From a virus: a stretch of DNA of 42,978 bases. The translations under genes and the position numbers were made by a program. Location of the stretch: the IMG/VR virus record IMGVR_UViG_3300049432_000212, positions 1 to 42,978 of that record. One strand, written 5' to 3'. Positions 1,631 to 41,167 of the stretch are shown in pieces. How positions within the stretch are numbered: the first letter of the stretch is position 1; every line of letters starts with the position of its first letter. The notes under the pieces are model-generated. The model saw only the letters and a program-made list of their open reading frames with translations. It did no database searches and was not told where the DNA came from.

Positions 1631-1643
1631 TACGTTATGTATT
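1629..1643. promoter_or_regulatory. Repressor operator (OL, outer)
   Basis: AATACGTTATGTATT fits the pattern AATAC-N5-GTATT. It overlaps the -35 box of the leftward promoter and the last bases of the repressor gene. Confidence 0.7.
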
Positions 1644-2379
1644 ATTGGAGCGTCGTCGCGCTGCTTGCTGGAGGTGGAAAGCTCGCCAAGACTGCGCGGC
1701 GCACGACGCCGATCACTCGTGTCTCTTCGTCCGCCGCATGCTCAAGATCGGGCGCGCCTAAGACGATCGGTTTCTGGAATTCAGGCCGATCCGATTCGCT
1801 AAGGAGGACATAATGACCATCGATCAGCGCCAGCCTTTTGCAGGTAAGCTCCACCAGGTCGTGCGATTGGCGCTGGACGATCACCAGCTCGCCAGGCTTG
1901 GCCTCGATCCTGCCGAACGCGATGCGCCGGCAAATAAGGGTGGCCGCGGTCGGGAGGGTCAGGTTCATGCTCTGGCCCTCCAGATTGACTGCGAACATCT
2001 CCTCCCCCTCATCACCGGTCAAAGCGGTAAAGTCGATTTCCTGAGGCTCGTCGGCATCAAGCACCGACGCTTCGCGCCAAATCCCGGCGGCCACAGTTCC
2101 GAGCAGCGGGATCTTCCGAACGACGCTGTAGCCGCGAGCGGCCCCGTACTCTGGCGCCTCGATGTGATCCAGGCCTAGCAACCAACCCGGCTGGCGCCTG
2201 AAGGCGCGCGCGTAACGAAGGGCTGCATCCACATCGAAGCCGCGAGTTCCGTTCTCGTGGCTGGTAAGCGTGGCCGGGGACCAACCGAACGCTTCGGCCG
2301 CGGCGGCGACCGTGCCGTACCCGGCGCCCTGTCGGGCTTCCCGCAGCCGTTCGGCCATAATGTCCTTGCGGCTCGCCAT
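1642..2379 (-). CDS. LexA/CI-type phage repressor (XRE HTH + S24 peptidase)
   Basis: From the start at 2379 this is 245 residues. The N-terminal 65 residues are an XRE helix-turn-helix (the AEAFGWSPATLTSHENGTR segment). The C-terminal half is an S24 self-cleaving domain: a likely Ala-Gly cleavage site in GTVAAG (residues 98-99), catalytic Ser137 in EGQSM and Lys181 in ELTCKRL, a Ser-Lys spacing of 44 close to lambda CI. It should repress both flanking promoters and be inactivated through RecA in the SOS response. A second start at 2358 has a better ribosome site (AAGGA) and would give 238 residues. It is transcribed away from the rightward early genes. Confidence 0.9.
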   Translation of the reverse strand: MASRKDIMAERLREARQGAGYGTVAAAAEAFGWSPATLTSHENGTRGFDVDAALRYARAFRRQPGWLLGLDHIEAPEYGAARGYSVVRKIPLLGTVAAGIWREASVLDADEPQEIDFTALTGDEGEEMFAVNLEGQSMNLTLPTAATLICRRIAFGRIEAKPGELVIVQRQSHDLVELTCKRLALIDGHYVLLSESDRPEFQKPIVLGAPDLEHAADEETRVIGVVRRAVLASFPPPASSATTLQ

Positions 2380-2403
2380 AATGCGCAGCGTAGCAAATTC
2401 TGT

Positions 2404-2418
2404 AATACAGTGGGTATT
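2404..2418. promoter_or_regulatory. Repressor operator (OR, outer)
   Basis: AATACAGTGGGTATT matches AATAC-N5-GTATT. It touches the -35 box of the rightward promoter and contains the best -10-like hexamer (TATTAC on the minus strand) for the repressor's own promoter, so occupancy could affect both directions. Confidence 0.7.
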
Positions 2419-2444
2419 GACAGGAATAATACGATGCGTATTAC
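2417..2444 (+). promoter_or_regulatory. Rightward early promoter (PR-like)
   Basis: TTGACA (2417-2422), a 16-bp spacer and TATTAC (2439-2444) form a good sigma-70-type promoter. The predicted start is about 2450-2452, one to three bases before the ATG of the Cro-like gene at 2453, so the transcript would be leaderless or nearly so. Confidence 0.75.
2428..2442. promoter_or_regulatory. Repressor operator (OR, inner)
   Basis: AATACGATGCGTATT is the most symmetric copy. With one flanking base on each side it is a perfect palindrome of two 7-base arms around 3 bases. It lies over the spacer and the -10 box of the rightward promoter, 24 bp centre to centre from the other copy. Confidence 0.75.
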
Positions 2445-2452
2445 GTGACAGC

Positions 2453-2896
2453 ATGTCACATCACCTCCAGCCCATATACAATGTGTGGGGCGGCAACGCC
2501 GAAGCGATGGCCGCAGACATCGACGAGCTCGGCGTCACCGTGCGGCAATGGCGCAATCGACGCGACATCCCCTCCCGCGCTTGGCCTAAGATAATCAAGG
2601 CAGCGGCCGCTAAGGGCGGCCTCTTGCGGCTGGAGGATTTCCTGCCCCCCGAGGCCAAGAGCGATCTCGCATTGCATGCGGGAAGTTCTGAACCCGAATG
2701 GCCGATCCAGTCAGCAAATAACGGCGCCGAAATTATCCGCCCGGATGAGGAGGCCGGCCCCGGCCACCCTTTCTCTGTGACCTGTTCCAGAACGTCGACC
2801 CGCCCGCAGGTCGACGCGAGAGCCGATCAATTGGGGTCGAACACCCCAGTCTCTTCGCCTGGAGCGTCAGCCATGCCGCCGGCTGACGCGGCATGA
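2453..2896 (+). CDS. Cro-like regulator, carph-isopro-type DNA-binding protein
   Basis: This 147-residue protein is the first gene after the rightward promoter. Its N-terminal 60 residues read as a helix-turn-helix of the YdaS/carph-isopro kind: a GGNAEAMAADI start, TVRQWRNRRDIPSRAW as recognition region, then an IIKAAAAKG helix. Such proteins take the Cro place in many alphaproteobacterial phages. The C-terminal 80 residues are Ser/Pro-rich and look disordered. The start at 2453 has no ribosome site and sits at the predicted transcription start, so leaderless translation is likely. Its stop overlaps the next ATG (ATGA). Confidence 0.75.
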   Translation: MSHHLQPIYNVWGGNAEAMAADIDELGVTVRQWRNRRDIPSRAWPKIIKAAAAKGGLLRLEDFLPPEAKSDLALHAGSSEPEWPIQSANNGAEIIRPDEEAGPGHPFSVTCSRTSTRPQVDARADQLGSNTPVSSPGASAMPPADAA

Positions 2897-4368: not shown

Positions 4369-5476
4369 CATCGAATGGACGGACGAGACCTGGAACCCGA
4401 TCACGGGCTGCTCGATCAAATCGCCGGGCTGCCGCGGCTGCTATGCGATGCAGCTGGCGGCGACTCGGCTGAAGCACCATCCGAGCCGCGCCGGCCTGAC
4501 CCACGAGGTCAACGGCCACCACGTCTGGACCGGCGAGGTCCGGTTCAACGAGCAGTGGCTCGATCAGCCGCTCAAATGGCGGCGGCCGCGCATGATCTTC
4601 GTCTGCGCCCATGGCGACCTGTTCCACGAGGACGTGCCCGACGAGTGGATCGATCGGGTGTTCGCGGTGATGGCGCTGGCGCCGCAGCATACGTTCCAGG
4701 TGCTGACTAAGCGCAGTGACCGGATGAGGGCCTACTTGGGCGCGGATCGCTTGCCCGTCCGGTGGGCGAATGACGGCGAGATCGCCGCCAGGATCGCATC
4801 CACCGCGCTCGACTCGTTCCGCAATGCCGGGCGCATCTATCAGGCAGGGTTTCCCCTCCCCAATGTCTGGCTCGGCGTCTCGGTCGAGGACCAGGTGCGC
4901 GCCGACGAGCGGATCCCGGACCTGTTGGCGACGCCGGCGACGGTGCGCTTCCTGAGCTGCGAGCCGTTGCTCGGGCCGATCGCCCTTACCCGCATCCATG
5001 AGACTTGGCTGGAGGAAGGCGGCGGACGCACCGATGCCTGGGAGAGCTGTCTCAATGGCAAGAGGTTCGACGAGTGGGGCGATGGCGACATCGAGGGCTG
5101 CCCCAAGGTCGATTGGGTCATCTGCGGCGGCGAGAGCGGGCCGCGGGCGCGGCCGATGCATCCGGACTGGGCGCGCTCGCTCCGCGACCAGTGCGCCGCG
5201 GCCGGGGTGCCGTTCTTCTTTAAGCAATGGGGGGCATGGGGGCCTGACACTGGCCCCGGCGGCGACGTCGATAGAACCGGCCTTCCGCGCGATCGCATTA
5301 TGGAAGGGGCGGGCCCCTGCGCGGTCCTCGTCGACCAGTCGTGGCGCCATTTCGCGGACGGGTATGAGCCGCCCATCGAGCTTTGCAGCGGCCATGCCGA
5401 GTTCGTCTATCGGCTCGGCAAGTCTCGAAATGGGCGCCTGCTCGACGGCGTGACGCATGATGGGCTGCCGGCATGA
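4358..5476 (+). CDS. DUF5131 (phage Gp37/Gp68) family protein
   Basis: This 372-residue protein begins with the family signature IEWTDETWNPITGCS and a Cys cluster C18, C25, C28 followed by YA, similar to the iron-sulfur motif of radical SAM-type enzymes. Other family marks are VLTKRSDRM, NVWLGVSVEDQ, RFLSCEPLLGP, WVICGGESGPRARP and FFFKQWG. Members are common in phages; the exact reaction is unknown to me, and a radical-SAM-like modification of nucleic acid or protein is the usual speculation. The start at 4358 overlaps the upstream gene by 11 bases. Neighbours are DNA-modification genes, which fits. Confidence 0.9.
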   Translation: MPTNIEWTDETWNPITGCSIKSPGCRGCYAMQLAATRLKHHPSRAGLTHEVNGHHVWTGEVRFNEQWLDQPLKWRRPRMIFVCAHGDLFHEDVPDEWIDRVFAVMALAPQHTFQVLTKRSDRMRAYLGADRLPVRWANDGEIAARIASTALDSFRNAGRIYQAGFPLPNVWLGVSVEDQVRADERIPDLLATPATVRFLSCEPLLGPIALTRIHETWLEEGGGRTDAWESCLNGKRFDEWGDGDIEGCPKVDWVICGGESGPRARPMHPDWARSLRDQCAAAGVPFFFKQWGAWGPDTGPGGDVDRTGLPRDRIMEGAGPCAVLVDQSWRHFADGYEPPIELCSGHAEFVYRLGKSRNGRLLDGVTHDGLPA

Positions 5477-5601
5477 GGCCCGCCGCGCGCAGCCTGCTGA
5501 TCGGGGTGGCCTATATTGCGCTCGGCACCGTGGCGACGTGCGCGCTCGCCTTCGGGCTCAAGGGCATTGCCATGCTGATGGCGCTGGCGGCGGGATCGTG
5601 A
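5473..5601 (+). CDS. Small two-segment membrane protein, 42 aa
   Basis: This 42-residue frame is held between ATGA and GTGA overlaps. It has two closely spaced hydrophobic stretches (SLLIGVAYIALGTVATCALAF and GIAMLMALAAG) that would form one long or two short membrane helices. No family is recognised. The exact overlaps at both ends are the main reason to accept it. Confidence 0.55.
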   Translation: MRPAARSLLIGVAYIALGTVATCALAFGLKGIAMLMALAAGS

Positions 5602-8243
5602 GGTACGGCTTCGCCATCCTCGCCGATTCTGGCTCCGAGCCACTGGACTATCTCGACTTCGTCAAAGCGAAGGCGGTGCGGGCGCCGGAGCTCGGGCTGC
5701 CCGTCGCGATCGGCGACGTTCATCCGCTGCTGCACCGGCATCAGCCGGTCCTGGTGAAATGGCTGGTCGAGGGCGGCCGGCGCGCGCTGTTCGCCAATTT
5801 CGGGCTCGGCAAGACGATGATCCAGCTCGAGGCGATGCGCCTCCTCGCCGAACAGATCGAGCGGGGCGAAGCGCGCTGGCCACTGTGCCTGATCGTCATC
5901 CCGCTCACCGTGGTCACCGAGTTCAAGACGGACGCGGCCAAGCTCGGCCTGGCCGTACTCTTCGTGCGCACGACGCGCGAGATCCTCGACGCGCAGGCGG
6001 CCGGCTTCCGCGGGCTCTACCTGACCAATTACGAATCGGTCCGCGAGGGCAAGATCGACACCTCGATCCTGACAGCGGTGTCGCTCGACGAGGCATCGTG
6101 CCTGCGCGGGTTTGGCGGGACCAAGACCTTCCGCGAGTTCATGAAGCTGTTCGACGGCGTCCGGTTCAAGTTCGTCGCCACCGCCACGCCCTCGCCCAAC
6201 GAATATATCGAGCTGCTCGCCTACGCCGCCTTCCTCGAGGTGATGGACGTCGGCCAGGCCAAGACCCGCTTCTTCAAACGCAACAGCGAGAAGGCCGACG
6301 CGCTCACCATCCACCCGCACAAGGAGGCGGAGTTCTGGCTCTGGGTCAATACCTGGGCGGCCTTCATCCAGCGGCCGAGCGATCTCGGCTTCTCCGACGA
6401 GGGCTACGACCTGCCCCCGCTCGACGTCCGCTGGCACGAGGTGCCATCGGACCACGTCAAGGCCGGCGAGGAGGCGGACGGCCAGCGCCGCCTGCTCAAG
6501 CCCGCCGCGATCGGCCTGGTCGACGCGGCGCGGGAGAAGCGCGACAGCCTGCCCGCCCGGATCGCCAAGCTGATCGAGCTGCGCGGCGAGGATCCCGGGG
6601 CGCATCGGCTGCTCTGGCACGACCTCGAGGACGAGCGCCGCGCGATCGAGGCGGCCTGCCCGAACGCGGTCAGCATCTACGGGGCCCAGGACCTCGGCGA
6701 CCGAGAGCAGGCGATCATCCGCTTCTCGGACGGCGAGATACAGGAGCTGGCGGCCAAGCCGATCCTCGCCGGGTCCGGCTGCAATTTCCAGCGCCACTGC
6801 GCCTGGGCGATCTTCCTCGGCATCGGGTTCAAGTTCAACGACTTCATCCAGGCGATCCACCGCATCCAGCGATTCCTGCAGACGAAGCCGGTGCGAATCG
6901 ACCTGATCTTCACCGAAGCGGAGCGCAGCGTGCGCGCCAGCCTCGAAGGCAAATGGAAGCGGCACGAAGAAATGTGCCGGCGGATGAGCGAGATCATCCG
7001 CGAGTATGGGCTTGGCCTCGCCGGCGCCGACGATCAGCTCGGCCGGTCGATCGGCGTCGAGCGGCGCGAGGCGACGTCGGCGGCATCGATCATCGGCAAG
7101 CCGGCGTGGCGCGTCATCAACCAGGACACGGTGATCGAGACCGCCCAACTCGCCGAGAACAGCCTCGACCTGATCGTCACGTCGGAGCCCTTCTCTACCC
7201 AATATGAATATACGCCGAGCTATAACGACTTCGGCCACACCGACAATGACGCCCATTACTTCGCGCAGATGGATTATCTGCTGCCGGAACTGGTGCGCGC
7301 GCTGAAGCCGGGCCGTATGATGTGCTTCCACGTCAAGGATCGCATCCGGCCCGGCGGTCTTGACGGGGTCAGCTTCCAGAGCGTCTCGCCCTTCCATGCC
7401 GAATGCATCGCGCATCGGCGCCGGCACGGCCTGTTCTACATGGGAATGATCACGGTCGTGACCGACGTGGTGCGTGAGAACAACGCCACCTATCGGTTAG
7501 GCTGGTCGATGCAGTGCGACGACGGCAGTCGAATGAGCGTCGGCATGCCCGAATATGTGCTGCTTTTCCGCAAGCCACCAACCGACACCAGCGATGGCTA
7601 TGCCGACGAACCGGTGAAGAAGAGCAAGGCCGACTATAGCCGCGCGCGCTGGCAACTCGATGCTCACGCGCTCTGGAAGTCGCGCGGCGACCGGCTGCTC
7701 GAGCCGGAGGAGTTGCTCGGGCTGGACACCAAGACGGTCTATCGCATGTTCCGCGGCTTCTCGGCCGAGAGCGTCTACGATTACGATCGGCACGTCGCGA
7801 TCGCCAAGGCGCTCGACGACGCCAACCAGTTGCCGACGCACTTCATGACGCTACCGCCGGTGTCCCGGCATCCCGACGTCTGGTCGGACGTGACCCGGAT
7901 GCGCACGCTAAACGGGGTGCAGGTCGCCAAGGGCCGAGAGCGACACCTCTGCCCGCTACAGTTCGATATCGTCGATCGCCTGATCACCCGATTCTCCAAC
8001 CCCGGCGAGCTGGTCTACGATCCCTTCGGCGGGCTGATGACGGTGCCGTTGCGCGCCGTTCGGCTCGGCCGGCGCGGGGTCGGGGTCGAGCTCAACCCCT
8101 CTTACTTCGACGACGGCGTGACGATCCTGCGCGAGGCCGATCAAGCCCGCCAGTCCCTCACCCTGTTCGACCTGCTTGTGGCGGAGGAAGCCGCGGACCC
8201 TGGTGACGAGGACGTGCCGGAAGAACTGGAGGCGGCGGAATGA
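5598..8243 (+). CDS. Phage helicase-DNA methyltransferase fusion protein
   Basis: From a GTG at 5598 (GTGA overlap) this is 881 residues. The N-terminal half is an SF2/SNF2-like ATPase: GLGKT (69-73), DEAS (164-167), ATATPSPN (about 194-201) and QAIHRIQR (418-425). The C-terminal half is a beta-class amino-methyltransferase: a motif-IV-like TSEPFS (528-533), then a target region, and the cofactor motif DPFGG (808-812) followed by VGVELNPSYF. The expected catalytic D/N/S-P-P-Y/F is replaced by S-E-P-F. Such fusions are known in phages and probably protect phage DNA from host restriction. Whether this copy still methylates cannot be told from sequence. Confidence 0.85.
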   Translation: MRYGFAILADSGSEPLDYLDFVKAKAVRAPELGLPVAIGDVHPLLHRHQPVLVKWLVEGGRRALFANFGLGKTMIQLEAMRLLAEQIERGEARWPLCLIVIPLTVVTEFKTDAAKLGLAVLFVRTTREILDAQAAGFRGLYLTNYESVREGKIDTSILTAVSLDEASCLRGFGGTKTFREFMKLFDGVRFKFVATATPSPNEYIELLAYAAFLEVMDVGQAKTRFFKRNSEKADALTIHPHKEAEFWLWVNTWAAFIQRPSDLGFSDEGYDLPPLDVRWHEVPSDHVKAGEEADGQRRLLKPAAIGLVDAAREKRDSLPARIAKLIELRGEDPGAHRLLWHDLEDERRAIEAACPNAVSIYGAQDLGDREQAIIRFSDGEIQELAAKPILAGSGCNFQRHCAWAIFLGIGFKFNDFIQAIHRIQRFLQTKPVRIDLIFTEAERSVRASLEGKWKRHEEMCRRMSEIIREYGLGLAGADDQLGRSIGVERREATSAASIIGKPAWRVINQDTVIETAQLAENSLDLIVTSEPFSTQYEYTPSYNDFGHTDNDAHYFAQMDYLLPELVRALKPGRMMCFHVKDRIRPGGLDGVSFQSVSPFHAECIAHRRRHGLFYMGMITVVTDVVRENNATYRLGWSMQCDDGSRMSVGMPEYVLLFRKPPTDTSDGYADEPVKKSKADYSRARWQLDAHALWKSRGDRLLEPEELLGLDTKTVYRMFRGFSAESVYDYDRHVAIAKALDDANQLPTHFMTLPPVSRHPDVWSDVTRMRTLNGVQVAKGRERHLCPLQFDIVDRLITRFSNPGELVYDPFGGLMTVPLRAVRLGRRGVGVELNPSYFDDGVTILREADQARQSLTLFDLLVAEEAADPGDEDVPEELEAAE

Positions 8244-10405: not shown

Positions 10406-10794
10406 GCCGGGACGATCCCCGCCGCGCCCACAATCAAGCCTGGCCCTGGACCACTCCTCTGGACGCGGAGCTCGTCCGCAGGGTCAAGGCGGGCGAGCGG
10501 CGCAAGACCATCGCGCATGAGATGGGCCGGCCGCTCTGGGCGGTCGGATATCGGATCGACCAGCTGCGGGAGTTGGGCCTCCTTGATTATCGCAACAGGC
10601 CGTGGAGCCCGGAGGAGACGACGAGATTGCTCGCCGCCCGCGACGCCGGCGCCCGCTGGACCGATCTTGCCCCGATCTTCAGGCGATCGCGCGCGGCGCT
10701 GCGCGAGCATGGCCTGAAGGCGCGGCGCGCCGTGCGCGAGGCCGCTGCCGCCGGCGATCTGGATCAATTCACATTGGAGCTGCGAGCTGCGTAA
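10402..10794 (+). CDS. Myb/SANT-like DNA-binding protein, 130 aa
   Basis: This 130-residue protein has two helix-turn-helix-like repeats. The first (WTTPLDAELVRRVKAGERRK, TIAHEMGRPLWAVGYRI) resembles a GcrA/SANT-type helix set; the second begins RPWSPEETTRLLAARDAG and continues WTDLAPIFRRSRAALREH, like a Myb/SANT repeat with conserved Trp. It is basic and likely binds DNA. In this position it may be a transcription factor or a replication or terminase-linked DNA binder. It shares one base with the next start (TAATG). Confidence 0.65.
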   Translation: MSRDDPRRAHNQAWPWTTPLDAELVRRVKAGERRKTIAHEMGRPLWAVGYRIDQLRELGLLDYRNRPWSPEETTRLLAARDAGARWTDLAPIFRRSRAALREHGLKARRAVREAAAAGDLDQFTLELRAA

Positions 10795-12002
10795 TGGGGC
10801 GCCCAGTCGACAATCTCTTCTCCCGTGGCGTACGCATGGTCCACGAGGAGGCGGTGGAGCTGACGCTCCAGTCGCTGCGCGCCTATTGGCCGCACCATGA
10901 CCATGTCGCCGTCGCCTGGTCTGGCGGCAAGGACAGCACGGCCACCCTCACCCTCCTTATCCACCTGATCGACGTCGGCGAGCTCGCCCAGCCCGAGCGG
11001 CTGTATGTCTTCTACGCGGACACACGCCAAGAGTTGCCGCCGCTGCAGGTGGCCGCCGAAGGTATCATGGAGAAGCTGCGCGAGCGGAACTGGATCGAGG
11101 TTAGGGTCGTGCGGGCGGCCCTCGACAAGCGATTCATGGTCTACATTCTCGGGCGGGGCGTGCCGCCCCCTAATAACAACACGCTCCGCTGGTGCACCCG
11201 GCAGATCAAGGTCGAGCCGATGGCCGCCGCGCTCGAGGAAGCGATCGCGGGGCTTCCCGGCACGGCGCTGATGATCACCGGCGTCCGTGAGGGCGAGAGC
11301 GCGGTGCGCGACGGGCGGATCAAGATGTCATGCTCGAAGGACGGGGCCGAGTGCGGCCAGGGTTGGTATCAGCAGGTCTTGCCCGAGGCGAAGGGCATCA
11401 GGGGCCGGCTCGCGACGCTGGCGCCGATCCTCCACTGGCGGGTGTGCATCGTCTGGGACTGGCTGCGCTTCTATGCCGCCCAGCCCGAGTTTGGCGGTTG
11501 GCCGACCCGGATCCTGGCGGACGCCTATGGCGGCGACGAGGCCGAGGAAATCAACGCGCGGACCGGCTGCATCGGCTGTCCGCTGGCGGCCAGGGACACA
11601 GCCCTAGAAACGGTAATCGCCATGCCCGCATGGGCACATCTGGCGCCCCTGATGGAGCTGAAGCCGATCTATCGCTGGATGCGCCTGCCGAAGCAGCGTT
11701 TGCGCAAATCGGGCGTCGAGAGGCTCAAGGACGGCTCTATCGCCAAGAACCCGCAGCGGATGGGGCCACTGACCCTGGAGGCGCGGTCGGAGGCGTTGGA
11801 GCGGATACTCGACATTCAGCGCCGTGCTGGCGTCGACCTGATCAATGACGAGGAAGAGGCGAGGATCCGCGAGCTGATCGCGGCGCGGACCTTTCCGGAC
11901 AAGTGGGAAGGTGACGAGCCGCGCGCCGACGCCTGGCTCGATGCGGTCTATGGTGACGGCTCGGTGCAGCCGATCCTCTATCGCGAGTTGGTCGGGTCGT
12001 GA
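10794..12002 (+). CDS. PP-loop PAPS-reductase/DndC-like protein
   Basis: This 402-residue protein has the ATP-pyrophosphatase PP-loop SGGKDST (43-49), then YVFYADTRQELPPL. LRWCTRQIK (C134), a pair of Cys at 180 and 187, and GCIGCPL (C259, C262) form a probable iron-sulfur site. This arrangement matches the PAPS reductase family in the branch that includes DndC of DNA phosphorothioation. No other dnd gene is present in the window, so full phosphorothioation is not expected from this cluster alone. Phages often carry such proteins with unknown substrates; nucleic-acid sulfur or modification chemistry is an inference. Confidence 0.8.
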   Translation: MGRPVDNLFSRGVRMVHEEAVELTLQSLRAYWPHHDHVAVAWSGGKDSTATLTLLIHLIDVGELAQPERLYVFYADTRQELPPLQVAAEGIMEKLRERNWIEVRVVRAALDKRFMVYILGRGVPPPNNNTLRWCTRQIKVEPMAAALEEAIAGLPGTALMITGVREGESAVRDGRIKMSCSKDGAECGQGWYQQVLPEAKGIRGRLATLAPILHWRVCIVWDWLRFYAAQPEFGGWPTRILADAYGGDEAEEINARTGCIGCPLAARDTALETVIAMPAWAHLAPLMELKPIYRWMRLPKQRLRKSGVERLKDGSIAKNPQRMGPLTLEARSEALERILDIQRRAGVDLINDEEEARIRELIAARTFPDKWEGDEPRADAWLDAVYGDGSVQPILYRELVGS

Positions 12003-27067: not shown

Positions 27068-27243
27068 CGGTCCCAGCCTGGGCGTTTGCCGTGGTCGACC
27101 TGTGGTTCACCTGCCGGCGCAATATGGGGATGATGGGGAGCTTCACAGCCCTTCCCTGTTCCGGCGGCGTCGGCGAGCAGCCGGCCGCTCTGATGGACGC
27201 CTTCGCGCTGCTGGACAGCGACATTGGCAAGGAGGCTGAGTGA
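26309..27243 (+). CDS. Tail assembly chaperone G-T fusion by -1 frameshift
   Basis: Slipping by -1 at A-AAA-AAC (26947-26953) continues into a frame of 96 more codons, to TGA at 27241-27243, giving a 311-residue G-T product. The -1 frame reads as real protein (FGRRIDEKGWEVAGARW, PAWAFAVVDLWFTCRRN, GGVGEQPAALMDAFALLDSD) and has no start of its own. Lambda and many long-tailed phages make such a fusion at a low ratio to G, and the ratio matters for tail assembly. No strong downstream hairpin is obvious. Confidence 0.8.
26947..26953 (+). promoter_or_regulatory. Programmed -1 ribosomal frameshift site
   Basis: AAAAAAC is in the phase A AAA AAC relative to the gpG-like frame, the strongest bacterial -1 slippery class. 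The downstream -1 frame is open for 96 codons. Confidence 0.8.
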
Positions 27244-27905
27244 TGCGCTCGGCGATCGAATTCAGCGTTGATCGCAGTCAGCTAGAGCGTGAGCTCCGGC
27301 GCATCGAAACCGCCTATCTGAAGGCAGAGCGTCATGCGGTCGCGGAGACGACGCGGGAGGCTGAGAAGGCGCTGGAGGGGGCGACCGCCGCGGCCGGGCT
27401 GGGTCGACTCGGCCGGGCCTGGACGAGCAAGGTATATCCGATCGGCGGGCTCGCAAGAGAGCCGGTGGGCTACATCTTTCCGAAAGGCGGGCGGCGAACC
27501 GAGGGCGCGATGCGGTCCTTTTCCCGGGGTGCCCGCATCCGCGCACTGGACGGTGGGCCCGTCGCCATCCCCTTGCCCGCTGCTGGCGGACGAGGGCGCG
27601 GCGGGGGGCTTACGCCGGAGGACTGGGAGCGCAAGACCGGGCAGAAGCTGAGACCAGTTTACCGGCGGGGCAAGGCGCCCTTGCTGGTCGCCGATGGCAG
27701 GGTAAATATGAGGAGCGGGCGCTTCAGGAAGAACACCCAGCGCGACGCTCGACGGATCGGCCCGGGCTACGGCGCCACGGTCCCGATCTTCGTGCTGATG
27801 CCTCAAGTGAACCTCAGCGCGCGGTTCTCGATCGAGGGGACGCTGGCGCCGTTCCCGGGTCGTCTCGCCGCAGCATTCGTGCGATTGGTGAATGCGATAA
27901 GTTGA
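27243..27905 (+). CDS. DUF6441 family tail protein
   Basis: This 220-residue basic protein starts at ATG 27243, right after the GT frame stop, with GGAGG 7 bases upstream. The pattern RSAIEFSVDRSQLERELRRI, RLGRAWTSKVYPIGG, VGYIFPKGGRRTEGAMRSFS, ARIRALDGGPVAIPLP and VFVLMPQVNL-like VPIFVLMPQVN matches DUF6441. Position and charge recall lambda gpZ-type tail completion proteins. It ends 40 bases before the moron gene. Confidence 0.8.
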   Translation: MRSAIEFSVDRSQLERELRRIETAYLKAERHAVAETTREAEKALEGATAAAGLGRLGRAWTSKVYPIGGLAREPVGYIFPKGGRRTEGAMRSFSRGARIRALDGGPVAIPLPAAGGRGRGGGLTPEDWERKTGQKLRPVYRRGKAPLLVADGRVNMRSGRFRKNTQRDARRIGPGYGATVPIFVLMPQVNLSARFSIEGTLAPFPGRLAAAFVRLVNAIS

Positions 27906-27910
27906 AAAGG

Positions 27911-27939
27911 TTTGCTCACCCGAGGCAAAGCGATATGAT
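27911..27939 (+). promoter_or_regulatory. Candidate promoter for the moron gene
   Basis: TTTGCT (27911-27916), 17 bases and TATGAT (27934-27939) make a reasonable sigma-70-type promoter. The expected start is about 27946, the A of the ATG, so the message would be leaderless. No ribosome site precedes the ATG, which agrees. Confidence 0.5.
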
Positions 27940-27945
27940 TGGTCC

Positions 27946-28515
27946 ATGCTAAAAAAGGTCGTCCTCTGCCTGGCCTTGGCCACCACCTCGACTACAACCG
28001 CTTACTCTCAGCCCAAGGACGTTGTGGCGCAGGGTAATCCAGCGGGAGAGGTCTTAAATAATGTCGAGGTCATTGACGACCCATTTAGCGTCAGCGCCCT
28101 ATATCAACTCACAATCGTAGACCAGCGGGCAGCTGACGACGGCGAGCGACTGAGAGCTTGGATTATAGTTTCCGTAGACCGTCAAACCGGCACTCGCATT
28201 TGGGCCCTCAGCGGATTCATTTTCTATCGCGGTGACTGGAGGTTTTACAATTCAGCCCGACTGTTAGGTGGTCGAACGCTAGATTTAACCCCTGGCTCGC
28301 GGGACGTAGTGACCTGCAGATCGGAACCCTGTCTTTTGAGTGAGGGCTTCACAGCCTTTCTAGACGACAGTGCTATTTCGGAGGCGAGACGTAGCGGGCT
28401 GCTCGCCGTCCAAATTGGGGGGCAGAGGGGCGGCAGGTTCGAACTGAGAATCACGCAGGCTGATCTTCGGGCTTTGGAGGCCTCTATAGCGGCTCACCCT
28501 CCAGCGCGGCAGTGA
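27946..28515 (+). CDS. Secreted moron protein of unknown function, 189 aa
   Basis: This 189-residue protein has a signal peptide (MLKKVVLCLALATTSTTTAYSQ; likely cleavage after the Ala-Tyr-Ser region), so it acts in the periplasm or outside. A pair of Cys in TCRSEPC could form a disulfide. The mature part is beta-rich (ALYQLTIVDQRA, AWIIVSVDRQTGTRIWALSG). Base composition drops to roughly 55% GC against about 65% or more around it, and it has its own promoter and a following terminator. That is the signature of a moron, a cargo gene often expressed from the lysogen. Superinfection exclusion or host-surface change is possible; no family is recognised. Confidence 0.8.
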   Translation: MLKKVVLCLALATTSTTTAYSQPKDVVAQGNPAGEVLNNVEVIDDPFSVSALYQLTIVDQRAADDGERLRAWIIVSVDRQTGTRIWALSGFIFYRGDWRFYNSARLLGGRTLDLTPGSRDVVTCRSEPCLLSEGFTAFLDDSAISEARRSGLLAVQIGGQRGGRFELRITQADLRALEASIAAHPPARQ

Positions 28516-28594
28516 AGGCAGTGAAATTCAAGCTCATGCGCAGTGCAGAGCCAAAGGCAAGCGTCGCATCATAGGCCTTCTGGGCGTCTGACAT
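28484..28594 (-). CDS. Small antisense gene, 36 aa
   Basis: On the minus strand a GGAGAA ribosome site stands 7 bases before ATG (28594), and a 36-codon frame (beginning MSDAQKAYDATLAFG) ends at TAG 28484, overlapping the last 32 bases of the moron gene tail to tail. It is the only minus-strand gene candidate in the late region. It could be a small regulator of the moron or a decayed remnant. No family is recognised. Confidence 0.35.
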   Translation of the reverse strand: MSDAQKAYDATLAFGSALRMSLNFTAFTAALEGEPL

Positions 28595-28661
28595 TTACGT
28601 TCTCCGAATCATGGCGGGACAACATCCCTCGCCAGAGATTGGGAGTCGATAGGCATTTACG

Positions 28662-28686
28662 GGCCGTCCTTCGGGGCGGCCTTTTT
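28662..28686 (+). terminator. Rho-independent terminator before tape measure gene
   Basis: GGCCGTCC (28662-28669), tetraloop TTCG and GGGCGGCC (28674-28681) form an 8-bp stem (one G-U pair) followed by TTTTT. It closes the moron unit; late transcription must read through it to reach the tape measure gene. Confidence 0.8.
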
Positions 28687-28704
28687 CAATTGAGGGAGGC
28701 GTCC

Positions 28705-31700
28705 ATGGATATTATCGCGCGCCTCCGCCTCAACGGCGAGGGCTTCAGCAGCGACTTCCGCGGCCGCTTTGCGGAAATGGAGAGCGCGGCGAGCGCTTCC
28801 GCTCGGCGGATGACGGGCATCCTCAAGGGCGTCACTTCGCCGCCTCTTTCGGCCGCGAGCTCGGCCTCCGCCTTCACGACCGGCCAAGCCGCCGCCGATC
28901 GCATGTTGGCCTCCGTCGATCATGTCTTCGCTGCCCAGCTCCGCTACAATCAGCAAATCGCCAAGGCGAACGAGCTTCATGCGACCGGCATGCTCTCGAC
29001 CGCCAATTATGCCCGAGTCCAGGCCGGCCTGAAGGCCGATCTCGACCAGGCGTCGTTGGCTCAGCAACGCATGGCGGGCAGCGCCGGCATGGCTCGCGCC
29101 GGCTATCAGCAGCTCAGCTTCCAGATCGGCGACGTAACCCAGCAGCTTGCCTTGGGCGTAAATCCGGCGGTCGTTTTCGGCCAGCAGATGGGCCAGATCG
29201 CACAGGCGCTGAGCCTGATCGAGGGCGGCAAGGCGAGCGGAGCGGGCGACGCGGTTTCCTCGCTCAAGGAGGACTTCGACGGGGCTGCCGGGGCGATCGA
29301 GCAGGCGCAGGGTGCGACCGAACAACTCACCGAGGTGCTCGGTGCCGGCGCGGCGGCGACGGAAGGGAATAGCGCCGCCACAGGTGCCAATGCCGCCGCT
29401 CAGCGCGGCCGGACGGGCGCTACTGCCGGCAGTAGCGTCGCCACGGGTGCGAATTCAGCAGCCACTGCCTCCAACACCGCCGCCACCGAAGCCAATGCCG
29501 TAGCCACGACCGGCCTGGCCGCTGCGAAATCGCGGCTGGTGGGCTTCCTGGCTGGCCCATGGGGGGCCGCGCTGATCGGTGCGGTCACCGTGCTGGGGCT
29601 GTTTGGAAGCAAGATTTTCGACACCGACACCGAGCTGGAGAAGTTGACGGCCGACTTGGATGAGAATGCGCGAAAGACCACGCTGAACCGGGAAGCGCAG
29701 GAGGCCCATTCTCACACCATGGTCGGGGTCATCGACCGGATCAGGGAGCAGACGGAAGCGCTGCAGGAGCAGAATCGCACCCTTGAGGAAAATAGCACGC
29801 TCCGTGCGGAACAGGCCGGCGATCTCCTCAACGAGGCCCTCGCATCCCGCGACTGGCTGAGGGGGGCCGCCGAGAGCTTCGGAGGCAACAGGGCTTTGAA
29901 CCGGGCGATGGTCCAGGCGTTCGCGGACCCGATCGTCGCCCGGGCCGAGGCGGGGGTTAATGAGGCCGCTATCGCCGGGGTGCGTGGGGAGGCGGAAGCG
30001 CTGGGAGACGCGGTCGCGGGCATCAATCGACAATTCGACCAAGAGGTCCGCTCTGCCGAGCGGGCCGCCGTCGCGATTGGGCAAGTAACGGCCGCAACGG
30101 CCCGCGAGATCGCTGCCATCAACGTTCGTCGTCAGGTGGCCATTGAGGCCGAGCGAGAGCGCCAGCGCATCGCCGAGGCCGAGAACCGCGACTATTCTCG
30201 CGTGCCGTTCGCGGAGGTGCGGGCGCGCATCATCGCCAATGAGGCGCCGCTCAGGGTCGGCGGCTACAACGCGCTCGCCTATAATACGAGCCCGACGCAA
30301 AACGCGGCCGGCGTCCATGCGCCGGGCTTGCTGACATCGATGACGATGGGTCAGCTTTACGACTTCCAACTCAACGTCATGCGCCCGCTCACCCGCGGCC
30401 GGCGGGGCCCGCGGGACGTGGGGTCGACCGGCGCCGGCGCCTATATGTTCGAGAGCGGAACTCTGCGGGAGAACGCAGCCCTCACCTTCGGTGAGGACTG
30501 GAGAAGCCAGCTATTTTCGGTCGCCAACCAGGACCGCGTAGCCGAGACGCTGTACAACAGGGTTCGCGGCAATCGGACCCAGTTGCGCAACACCTGGGCC
30601 GCATTCCAGCCTGGCCACACCGGTCGCGACGCCGACGACGCGGCGGCCGCGGCGGCCGCTGCGGCGCAAGCCAATGCGCTCGCGCGCGAGGAGCAGGCTC
30701 GCGCCCGGATCCTCGCCCAAGCCCATGCGTCGACCGTACAGGCGGTTGAGCAGGCTCGGCTCGGCGACATGCGCGCTCGCGGCCTCGACAGCGAAGCTGC
30801 TCTCGAAGAGCAGCTCAACGCGAAGCGCGCCGAGGCTGCGGAGCGCATTGCCGGACTCCGCGAAGCGGCGGCCGAGCGCGGCGCCGGCGCGCAAGAGCAA
30901 GACGCGATCGTCGCGGCGCAGCAGCAAATTACGCCCGGTCTGCAAGAGCAACTCGACCTGCTGGACCGGCAGTCGGCCATCTTCAACCAACTGCTCTTCG
31001 CCAATCGCGATCGCGAGCACCTCACTACGGAGCAGGTCCAGGCTGAGGAGGAGGCCGCCGCAGCGCTCCAGCAGACGCGCGAACGGGCTCAGGGGCTTGC
31101 TGTCACCGTCGCGGACACGCTTGCCCTCCAGGAGAGGCAATTGCGCGTCCAGGACCGGCAGAACGCAGTGGTCGGTCGCGCTGGTGAGTTGCGCCAAAAG
31201 CAGAACCAGGCTGCCCGGATGGCGCTGGAAGAGCAGGAGCAAGAACTCGAGCAAATGAAGGAGGACATGCGCCAGCGCGAGGAGGGGCAATATCGCGAGC
31301 TGGCGGCGCTCTGGGGCGACCTGATGCGCGGCAATGTCGACAGCATCTGGGATCGCTTCAAAGAGGCCGGGATCGACGCCATCGCCGAGATCGCCGCTCA
31401 GTGGACACTGGCGATGATGACCGGGCAGAAATTCGACCTGGGCGGCACCATGGCCGGGATGGGTCAGAGCGGCGGCTTTGGGCCCTTGGGCAGCCTGCTT
31501 GGGGTGTTCGGCAAGGGGTCCGGGGGCGCCGGTAGCGGGGAAGGTTTGTGGGGATCGCTGGGCGCAGGCGGAGGCGGCGAGGCCGGCGGCGGAGGCGCCG
31601 GCGGCGTTGCACCGTACGCGGTCGCGGCGATCGCGGTTTTCTCGATCCTGAAGGGTTTGGGCGTCTTTTCCTCAACCAAACGCGGCAGTGCAACGCTCGG

Positions 31701-32739
31701 CTATTCCGGCGGTGAGCTCAGTACCGCCGCGACGCGCGGCAACAGTAGCTCGTATATCGCCGCTTCTTCGAGCGCGATGGACAGCGTCGGCAGCAGCCTC
31801 GAGCGGATCGCCGAGATGCTCGGCGGCGACGTTACCGGTGCCGGCTCGGTCTCGCTCGGCCAGCGCGACGGCAAATGGCGCGGCGACCCGTCGGGGCAGG
31901 GCATCACCAAGACCAAGAAGGGCGCGATCGACTTCGGAGAGGATCAGGAGGCGGCGATCCGCTGGGCGATCAGCGAGGCGCTGCGCGACGGCGTGATCAG
32001 CGGCATTTCGGACGCGGCCAAGCGCCTGCTTCAATCCGGTAAGGATCTGGAGAAGGCGATCGCCAAGGCGCTGATGATCGAGGAAATCCCCAAGCTGCTC
32101 AAGGCCCGCCTCGACCCGGTCGGCGCCGCGCTCGATGCGCTGAACGAGAAGTGGGACAAGACCGTCGCGGCTCTGAAGGAGGGCGGCGCGACAGCGGAGC
32201 AGACGGCCGAGGCGCAGCAGCTCTACAAGCTCGAGCTCGAGGATACGATCGCCAAGACGGCGGCGGCGTCGGCGTCGCTCAAGGAGTTCCTCGACAGCCT
32301 GAAAATGGGCTCCGACAGCCCCTATTCGCTCCGCCAGCAGGAGGAGACGGCCCGCGCCGCGCTCCAGCCCTTCCTGGACAAGATCGCCGCCGGCGAGAGC
32401 ATCGACCAGGACCAATATCAGCAGACCGCGCAGACTTATCTCGACATCGAGCGGCAGCTCTACGGGTCCACGGACCAATTCTTCGCCGCCATGGACCTGA
32501 TCATGGCCGCGACGAACAAGGCGATCGAGCGCATCGACAGCGCGGTGCCGATCAGGACGGCCGTCGACCCGTTCGTCGAGGCGACCGCGGCCAACACCGG
32601 CACAATGACCGAGCAGCTGGAGGGCCTCCAAAGCACGCTGAGCCAGATCCTCGGCGCCGTCTCGGGTGGCGCCGTCCCCACTGCGGCCAACGATTTCATT
32701 GGCGGCGGGGCCGGCTTCATCAACATGTCGGCGGCCTGA
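28705..32739 (+). CDS. Tail tape measure protein with lysozyme-like domain
   Basis: From ATG 28705 (GGGAGG site) this is 1344 residues and sets tail length. The start MDIIARLRLNGEGFSSDFRG and the AGYQQLSFQIGDVTQQLALG segment are tape-measure marks. Residues about 219-275 are a repetitive Ala/Thr/Asn tract followed by a membrane helix (WGAALIGAVTVLGLFG). Residues about 499-634 resemble a phage lysozyme-like hydrolase (IIANEAPLRVGGYNALAY with E513; STGAGAYMFESGTLRENAAL; LYNRVRGNRTQLRNTWAAFQ). Coiled coils fill about 650-900 and a Gly-rich linker lies near 930-970. The hydrolase part could open the cell wall during DNA entry. Confidence 0.92.
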   Translation: MDIIARLRLNGEGFSSDFRGRFAEMESAASASARRMTGILKGVTSPPLSAASSASAFTTGQAAADRMLASVDHVFAAQLRYNQQIAKANELHATGMLSTANYARVQAGLKADLDQASLAQQRMAGSAGMARAGYQQLSFQIGDVTQQLALGVNPAVVFGQQMGQIAQALSLIEGGKASGAGDAVSSLKEDFDGAAGAIEQAQGATEQLTEVLGAGAAATEGNSAATGANAAAQRGRTGATAGSSVATGANSAATASNTAATEANAVATTGLAAAKSRLVGFLAGPWGAALIGAVTVLGLFGSKIFDTDTELEKLTADLDENARKTTLNREAQEAHSHTMVGVIDRIREQTEALQEQNRTLEENSTLRAEQAGDLLNEALASRDWLRGAAESFGGNRALNRAMVQAFADPIVARAEAGVNEAAIAGVRGEAEALGDAVAGINRQFDQEVRSAERAAVAIGQVTAATAREIAAINVRRQVAIEAERERQRIAEAENRDYSRVPFAEVRARIIANEAPLRVGGYNALAYNTSPTQNAAGVHAPGLLTSMTMGQLYDFQLNVMRPLTRGRRGPRDVGSTGAGAYMFESGTLRENAALTFGEDWRSQLFSVANQDRVAETLYNRVRGNRTQLRNTWAAFQPGHTGRDADDAAAAAAAAAQANALAREEQARARILAQAHASTVQAVEQARLGDMRARGLDSEAALEEQLNAKRAEAAERIAGLREAAAERGAGAQEQDAIVAAQQQITPGLQEQLDLLDRQSAIFNQLLFANRDREHLTTEQVQAEEEAAAALQQTRERAQGLAVTVADTLALQERQLRVQDRQNAVVGRAGELRQKQNQAARMALEEQEQELEQMKEDMRQREEGQYRELAALWGDLMRGNVDSIWDRFKEAGIDAIAEIAAQWTLAMMTGQKFDLGGTMAGMGQSGGFGPLGSLLGVFGKGSGGAGSGEGLWGSLGAGGGGEAGGGGAGGVAPYAVAAIAVFSILKGLGVFSSTKRGSATLGYSGGELSTAATRGNSSSYIAASSSAMDSVGSSLERIAEMLGGDVTGAGSVSLGQRDGKWRGDPSGQGITKTKKGAIDFGEDQEAAIRWAISEALRDGVISGISDAAKRLLQSGKDLEKAIAKALMIEEIPKLLKARLDPVGAALDALNEKWDKTVAALKEGGATAEQTAEAQQLYKLELEDTIAKTAAASASLKEFLDSLKMGSDSPYSLRQQEETARAALQPFLDKIAAGESIDQDQYQQTAQTYLDIERQLYGSTDQFFAAMDLIMAATNKAIERIDSAVPIRTAVDPFVEATAANTGTMTEQLEGLQSTLSQILGAVSGGAVPTAANDFIGGGAGFINMSAA
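29356..29514 (+). repeat. Degenerate Asn-Ala-Ala-Thr repeat tract in tape measure gene
   Basis: In this stretch the protein repeats variants of NSAATGAN and NTAATEAN about six times. The DNA copies are degenerate, so the repetition is at protein level. Confidence 0.6.
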
Positions 32740-40500: not shown

Positions 40501-40523
40501 GTGTCCAAATTATCCGGCACAGG

Positions 40524-40549
40524 GCGGGGGCTTCGGCCCCCGCTTTTTT
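40524..40549 (+). terminator. Strong rho-independent terminator at end of late operon
   Basis: GCGGGGGC (40524-40531), tetraloop TTCG and GCCCCCGC (40536-40543) form a perfect 8-bp stem followed by TTTTTT. It ends late transcription after the lysis genes. Confidence 0.92.
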
Positions 40550-40593
40550 GGGAAATTACATACATGGCTCCCTACTCAGGAAGGATGTAACAG

Positions 40594-40968
40594 ATGAGCG
40601 GCAAGCCTCGTGCAGACAGCCCATGCGGCACCCCCGGCACGGTCTACGAGACTGAGATCGACGACTCGGAAATTGTCATGCGGATGAAGTTGCCGCTGCC
40701 TGTCCTCGCTGCGCTTACCGAGGCCGAGAGAAGTAAGCTGGTCGGCGACCTTCATGGTGGAATTATCCCTGCGATGGAGTGGGTTTTCAGCCGCACATGG
40801 GCAGAGTTTTTCGCGGGTAAGCTGCTGCCGCTTGCAAGCGACGAGCGGCTCCCCGAACGGCACAGCGACTTGTTCAGGCGCAAAGTGACCGCGGGTGACG
40901 CCTTTAGTGGCAGGGCCTCCGTCTACTCCTCGCAAGGAAGCCCCGAGAGAGGGGGCGGAGCACGGTGA
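40594..40968 (+). CDS. Hypothetical protein at right prophage end, 124 aa
   Basis: This 124-residue protein begins MSGKPRADSPCGTPGTVYET, with GGAAGG 8 bases upstream of the ATG. It contains IVMRMKLPLPVLAALTEAER and AMEWVFSRTWAEFFAGKLLP and has no signal peptide. It lies after the late terminator and before the attachment site, where phages often keep cargo genes expressed in the lysogen. The family is not recognised and no clear promoter is seen. Confidence 0.6.
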   Translation: MSGKPRADSPCGTPGTVYETEIDDSEIVMRMKLPLPVLAALTEAERSKLVGDLHGGIIPAMEWVFSRTWAEFFAGKLLPLASDERLPERHSDLFRRKVTAGDAFSGRASVYSSQGSPERGGGAR

Positions 40969-41125
40969 CTAGAGCGATCAGGAGCCATGTATATAATCCG
41001 CCTTTTTGTGCCTGCTGCAATTGGCGGCCCGCCCGCGTTTTACACGCGATCGGTAAGCTATTGATCTAGAACGGGCCGGAAGTGGGCGGTTTTACCAAGC
41101 GACCGGCGGATTTCCGCCAAAGGTG

Positions 41126-41167
41126 CCAGCTTGGAAGGCTAGTGCTCTACCATTGAGCTATACCCGC
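41126..41167 (-). tRNA. tRNA-Gly(TCC), 5' half only; candidate attachment site
   Basis: Read on the minus strand from 41167, the sequence has a tRNA acceptor 5' strand (GCGGGTA), a D arm (TAGCTCAATGGTAGAGCA) and an anticodon arm CTAGC-CTTCCAA-GCTGG with anticodon TCC (41135-41133). After that no T arm or matching 3' acceptor strand follows; instead a GGCGGA/TCCGCC inverted repeat appears. The gene is therefore cut in the anticodon arm region, as expected if the prophage integrated here. An intact glycine tRNA may be rebuilt at the other end, outside the window. Confidence 0.75.

Follow-up and report, generated by a model that had tools for sequence, protein, structure and literature searches.

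Several exported or envelope proteins are known through which a resident prophage interferes with incoming phages. Ltp of the S. thermophilus phage TP-J34 and Sie2009 are exported proteins encoded in lysogeny regions that stop DNA injection (PMC3952083, PMC10883804), and in the case of Ltp the target is the tape-measure protein (TMP; PMC3952083). Phage HK97 encodes gp15, a superinfection-exclusion moron whose target has likewise been linked to TMP, and SieA provides a further precedent for exclusion (PMC10883804). Glo of Vibrio phage K139 is annotated as a periplasmic, exclusion-related protein, and the rexAB, lom and bor genes of lambda are expressed in lysogens (PMC7067206). That a moron within a late operon can be constitutive from its own promoter is illustrated by the tail assembly blocker Tab of phage JBD26, which is transcribed in this way in the lysogen and acts on TMP (PMC10884400).

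We analysed a virus record from IMG/VR, 42,978 bases long (hereafter, the window), in which genes follow the order repressor, CII-like activator, replication, terminase, portal, head protease/capsid, tail, TMP and lysis. Almost the whole window is syntenic with a sister phage (G002), mostly at 80-98% identity; the sister's contig bears an integrase-like ORF—recognised by reading rather than by a family search—and we therefore take this phage to be temperate. In blastn alignments, identity to the sister ends at position 27900, at the stop codon of a DUF6441 tail gene (27240-27905, plus strand; PF20039, E 2.6e-19), and restarts at 28661, the first base of a terminator stem just ahead of the TMP gene (28705-32739, plus strand; phrog_24, E 2.8e-6; TMP_2, E 5e-6, a match that falls below Pfam's cut-off). 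The intervening cassette (27901-28660, plus strand; borders accurate to about ±10 nt) has no counterpart in the sister, where the same slot holds 2.47 kb of unrelated DNA. Since unrelated genes fill the slot there, the cassette is optional, swappable cargo, which upholds the designation as a moron that a first-pass annotation had given to its gene. A further phage (G001) has head genes, but no detectable tail genes, in common with the window, so that the comparison is with a refilled slot only and not with an empty one.

The sister's slot (contig L007, 5667-8133) has a similarly low GC content (0.589) and comprises a 149-aa ORF, an exported protein on the minus strand, a 134-aa ORF and a Rha regulator, with a small ORF, judged by eye to be ribbon-helix-helix-like, upstream of the exported protein. 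Elsewhere in the sister (L010, 2188-3153, plus strand), a protein with tandem AWDARDAWDA-like repeats is encoded directly before a DNA methyltransferase-like ORF. The second-lowest GC dip of the window (40501-40968; 0.589) lies exactly where synteny with the sister stops, and possibly marks another cargo site. Outside these regions, the window encodes a phosphoadenosine phosphosulfate reductase-like protein (10602-12002; phrog_12882, E 5e-220) and a protein of 928 aa with matches to DNA helicase as well as DNA methyltransferase families (5457-8243). A weak Rfam tRNA match (41105-41167, minus strand; 31.6 bits) was not confirmed by ARAGORN, and a terminal run of GCC repeats (1-90) is possibly an assembly artefact.

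The cassette's moron gene (27946-28515, plus strand) encodes a protein of 189 aa. Its N-terminus, MLKKVVLCLALATTSTTTAYSQ, combines a basic n-region and a hydrophobic core with an A-x-S ahead of Q22, giving a signal peptide of 21 residues (27946-28008, plus strand) with predicted cleavage between AYS and Q and no lipobox. N-terminal hydropathy reaches 2.15, as compared to at most 1.55 in the tail and head proteins used for comparison. The product is thus predicted, from its signal peptide, to be exported to the envelope. Base composition sets the gene apart as well: of all 570-bp windows along the record (mean 0.665, sd 0.028), the lowest fall in the cassette, whose GC content is 0.552, and third-position GC of the gene is 0.58 against 0.78 and 0.82 in its two neighbours. 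Both traits—an export signal on a protein encoded between tail genes, and a distinct composition—had been remarked upon before and are borne out here. A convergent 36-aa ORF on the minus strand (MSDAQKAYDATLAFGSALRMSLNFTAFTAALEGEPL; 28484-28594), preceded by a GGAG Shine-Dalgarno sequence, overlaps the 3' end of the moron gene; it found no match among phages. A small convergent gene occupies the corresponding place in Acinetobacter phages, too.

Directly upstream of the moron gene lies a promoter-like site (TTTGCT-N17-TATGAT; 27911-27939, plus strand), whose -10 element ends 6 nt before the ATG, a geometry typical of leaderless transcripts. Only 14 of 4292 sixty-nt stretches reach its score, the scoring being based on the E. 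coli sigma70 consensus, which may not be that of the host's sigma factor; a strict consensus scan missed the site. Among 555 plus-strand ATGs, that of the moron gene is the only one with an equally strong -10 element 5-8 nt away, and no Shine-Dalgarno sequence was found ahead of it. A leaderless mRNA from this site is therefore plausible. Of the probable leaderless transcript put forward earlier, the spacing to the start codon and the missing Shine-Dalgarno sequence hold, whereas the promoter escapes the strict scan and leaderlessness itself is no more than plausible. An inverted repeat at the promoter (TTTGC-N9-GCAAA; 27911-27929) was considered as an operator and dismissed, as about one such repeat is expected by chance and none occurs at the repressor.

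An intrinsic terminator (28661-28687, plus strand; stem 28661-28682 followed by a T-run), with a predicted folding energy of -18.2 kcal/mol (z -3.8), closes the slot on its right side, immediately ahead of TMP. The strong terminator ascribed to the moron gene in the first-pass annotation is thus real, yet it belongs to the slot: it is kept in the sister, whose cargo differs, and so marks the border between slot and TMP rather than the gene itself. We read it as a fixed boundary that would insulate TMP from whatever cargo the slot holds.

By sequence, the moron protein (P0001) matched nothing in Pfam, PHROGs, NCBIfam, PADLOC or PDB, and scanning viral and genome contigs with this protein alone returned no relatives. 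Searching phage records by tblastn, by contrast, uncovered one distant relative on a phage scaffold of faecal origin (E 1e-5 at 28.6% identity; 30% over 152 residues in a pairwise comparison). Proteins of Acinetobacter vieuviruses and Asticcacaulis plasmids were likewise retrieved by tblastn, and motif scans of viral contigs added five further homologues (L018, L021, L022, L023 and L030). Seven aligned sequences have ten invariant residues in common, including a cysteine pair (C124 and C129 in the window protein, a likely disulfide; 28315-28332, plus strand), and share the motif Y-x-G-x-W-R-x-Y (aa 94-101; 28225-28248, plus strand). The moron protein has the signal peptide of the family, its two conserved cysteines and the conserved E and G. 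A profile built without the window protein recovered it at E 2.4e-20 and, with the motif masked because it had been used to find members, still at E 2.4e-12; every member passes this leave-one-out test, and the best of 999 shuffled sequences scored about E 2. The phage homologues start with export-type N-termini, either signal peptides or lipoboxes, and several members match PHROG 8752, a model that P0001 itself does not reach. Contrary to the earlier impression of a protein without relatives, it is a member of an exported and, judging from these sequence comparisons, uncharacterised Y-x-G-x-W-R-x-Y family. None of Pfam, NCBIfam, PADLOC and PDB offers a name or function for this family, and its members gave no convincing match to PADLOC defence models.

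Lower GC, together with the lack of a close homologue (the best one found being about 30% identical), might suggest that the cassette is a decaying, non-expressed insertion of horizontally acquired DNA without a present function. We regard this as very improbable: the reading frame is intact with all ten family-invariant residues in place, a promoter-like site is positioned at the ATG, and dN/dS between two phage copies of the family—not involving the window copy—is 0.09, the signature of purifying selection on a working protein. In a pair of near twins (L002, 3245-4541; L003, 4225-5519), dS of the moron homologues is 0.54 while that of the adjacent repressors is only 0.07, so the moron seems to have been swapped independently of its neighbour.

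We then inspected where the homologues reside. Five of the seven phage lineages have the gene in the repressor (lysogeny) operon, separated from the repressor by at most one gene. The gap to an immediately preceding repressor is 12-75 nt in L018, L023 and the near twins L002 and L003; in L022 the gene comes 404 nt after a CI-type HTH gene, and in L030 one other gene separates it from the repressor. L003, L022 and L030 have well-supported repressor calls, those of L018 and L023 being weak. For 60-gene genomes and random positions, finding five of seven lineages beside the repressor has a chance of about 1e-6, under the assumption that the seven are independent; the motif scans that found them carry no location information. 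As a rescan with an AGR-codon version of the motif added no new true member, this association derives from a single sample. The exceptions are L021 and the Acinetobacter vieuviruses; in the vieuviruses, the homologue sits in a variable stretch just upstream of TMP, beside BRO/Rha genes, and a Rha gene is likewise part of the cargo in the sister's slot. The window gene occupies the same TMP-proximal slot as in these Acinetobacter members rather than a repressor operon, and its expression in the lysogen is to this extent carried over from its relatives. The homologues of L023 and L030, unlike the window gene, are preceded by clear Shine-Dalgarno sites, which fits their location within an operon.

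The distribution also bears on whether the product could be a late lytic or virion-associated protein, that is, one produced only with the late genes that assists lysis, virion release or tail function from the periplasm. That its gene lies within the late tail operon and runs in the same direction would fit such a role. However, for homologues in repressor operons late expression is excluded, the gene is wholly absent from the syntenic sister, and a signal peptide combined with a terminator makes a tail function unlikely. We consequently give a late role little credence.

What the repressor itself would control is suggested by its presumptive operators. The window encodes a CI-type repressor with HTH and S24 peptidase domains (1642-2454, minus strand; PF00717, E 4e-10), and the repeat TAATAC-N5-GTATTA occurs three times in the window, against 0.02 expected, each time flanking the repressor gene. 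Two copies (2403-2419 and 2427-2443, plus strand) lie at one end of the gene and a third (1628-1644) at its 3' end, an unusual place. Given their position, we infer that the repeats are CI operators. A scan of the window detected no such repeat at the moron promoter. With operators flanking the repressor gene only, the moron promoter should be active in the lysogen, and the simplest reading of these sequence features is that it escapes CI repression. Together, the residence of homologues in repressor operons in five of seven lineages and a moron promoter free of CI operators lend indirect support to the role in lysogenic conversion or exclusion for which the gene had been singled out.

Structure prediction and a fold search, both proposed in the first-pass annotation, pointed to an Ig-like beta-sandwich with a C-terminal helix. 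AlphaFold, run with the seven sequences, modelled the window protein at a mean pLDDT of 78.9 (rising to about 90 across most of the mature domain) and the L022 homologue, with the same fold, at 84. Bartonella IalB (PDB 3dtd) was the only solved structure to span the domain in full in each of the two models, for both of which it was the top match (Z 9.5 across 128 aa and Z 7.6 across 125 aa). Identity was 5-6%, however, and the margin over generic Ig domains about 1 Z unit, so that the match may reflect a shared Ig-like arrangement only. Neither P0001 (E up to 1) nor its relatives (E up to 0.1) matched the Pfam IalB family, and a profile search of the PDB did not retrieve IalB; we accordingly treat the modelled likeness as a hint and not as a relationship. 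The top Foldseek matches (a toxin homologue and TCR and antibody domains) had E-values above 1e-3 and low TM-scores and were discounted as generic. In BFVD, the top match was A0A0R6PKC7 (296 aa, E 6e-6), similar in length to PHROG 8752 proteins.

The resemblance to an exported alphaproteobacterial protein is also where a different kind of lysogenic conversion would find its footing. Rather than blocking phages, the protein might alter envelope physiology, for instance stress resistance, adhesion or surface interactions, as has been reported for lambda Lom and Bor. The evidence from genomic context suits this reading just as it suits exclusion, and Asticcacaulis has homologues on plasmids, outside any evident prophage, where these non-phage genes adjoin a DUF2490 gene and a two-component system. 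Along with the location of the L021 homologue away from the repressor, the plasmid copies imply that the domain also occurs outside exclusion loci. On the other hand, the IalB match has only about 5% identity, stands roughly 1 Z above Ig domains and lacks Pfam support, and the repressor-operon position in Gram-negative phages is that of the well-known exclusion genes rexAB and glo. Conversion without phage blocking is hence a serious, if not the favoured, possibility.

We consider it highly probable that the gene is an exported moron expressed in the lysogen and serving either exclusion or another form of conversion. As its specific function, superinfection exclusion is the likeliest by analogy, though we hold this with no better than even confidence; it is favoured because envelope or exported proteins of lysogens bring about exclusion in several phages (Glo, Ltp, Sie2009, HK97 gp15 and SieA). 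In the proposed scheme, a temperate siphovirus-like phage would carry the moron cassette in a variable slot between the DUF6441 gene and TMP. In the lysogen, the promoter without a CI operator would give rise to a short, probably leaderless mRNA ending at the slot terminator, such that TMP is not transcribed. The product would be exported via its signal peptide and adopt an Ig-like beta-sandwich fold in the periplasm, with the conserved Y-x-G-x-W-R-x-Y strand and a likely disulfide, and would there alter the host envelope to the benefit of the prophage, most likely by superinfection exclusion at the step of DNA entry. More tentatively still, temperate phages of Gram-negative hosts could possess, in these homologues, a hitherto undescribed family of Ig-like proteins that bring about superinfection exclusion from the periplasm, shifting between the repressor operon and the TMP-side slot and directed against the DNA-injection machinery (TMP) of incoming phages. 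Being small and easy to clone, the gene is a candidate for a factor, widespread in Gram-negative phages, that serves exclusion or lysogenic conversion in the periplasm, and the TMP-adjacent slot, refilled in the sister, is a place to mine for more such genes.

Among described systems, the closest by homology are the PHROG 8752 proteins of Acinetobacter vieuviruses (e.g. WNT46685.1), which have a homologous C-terminal domain, are exported and are encoded in a variable region upstream of TMP; they differ in their length of about 297 aa and an extra N-terminal domain, and are linked to P0001 through other members. Ltp and Sie2009, in contrast, are Gram-positive lipoproteins or membrane proteins, and HK97 gp15 is an inner-membrane protein, all three being likened to the moron protein by description and not by sequence. 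Tab is a protein of 83 aa that blocks tail assembly inside the cell, is encoded between terminase genes on the opposite strand and is paired with an anti-Tab. Glo cannot be counted as a member of the family, as the family HMM did not match it at E up to 10; like the moron protein, it is a small exported protein of a temperate phage, and like most relatives of the latter it is encoded in a cI operon. Among the phages found here, the family mostly keeps the position of lambda rexAB and K139 glo.
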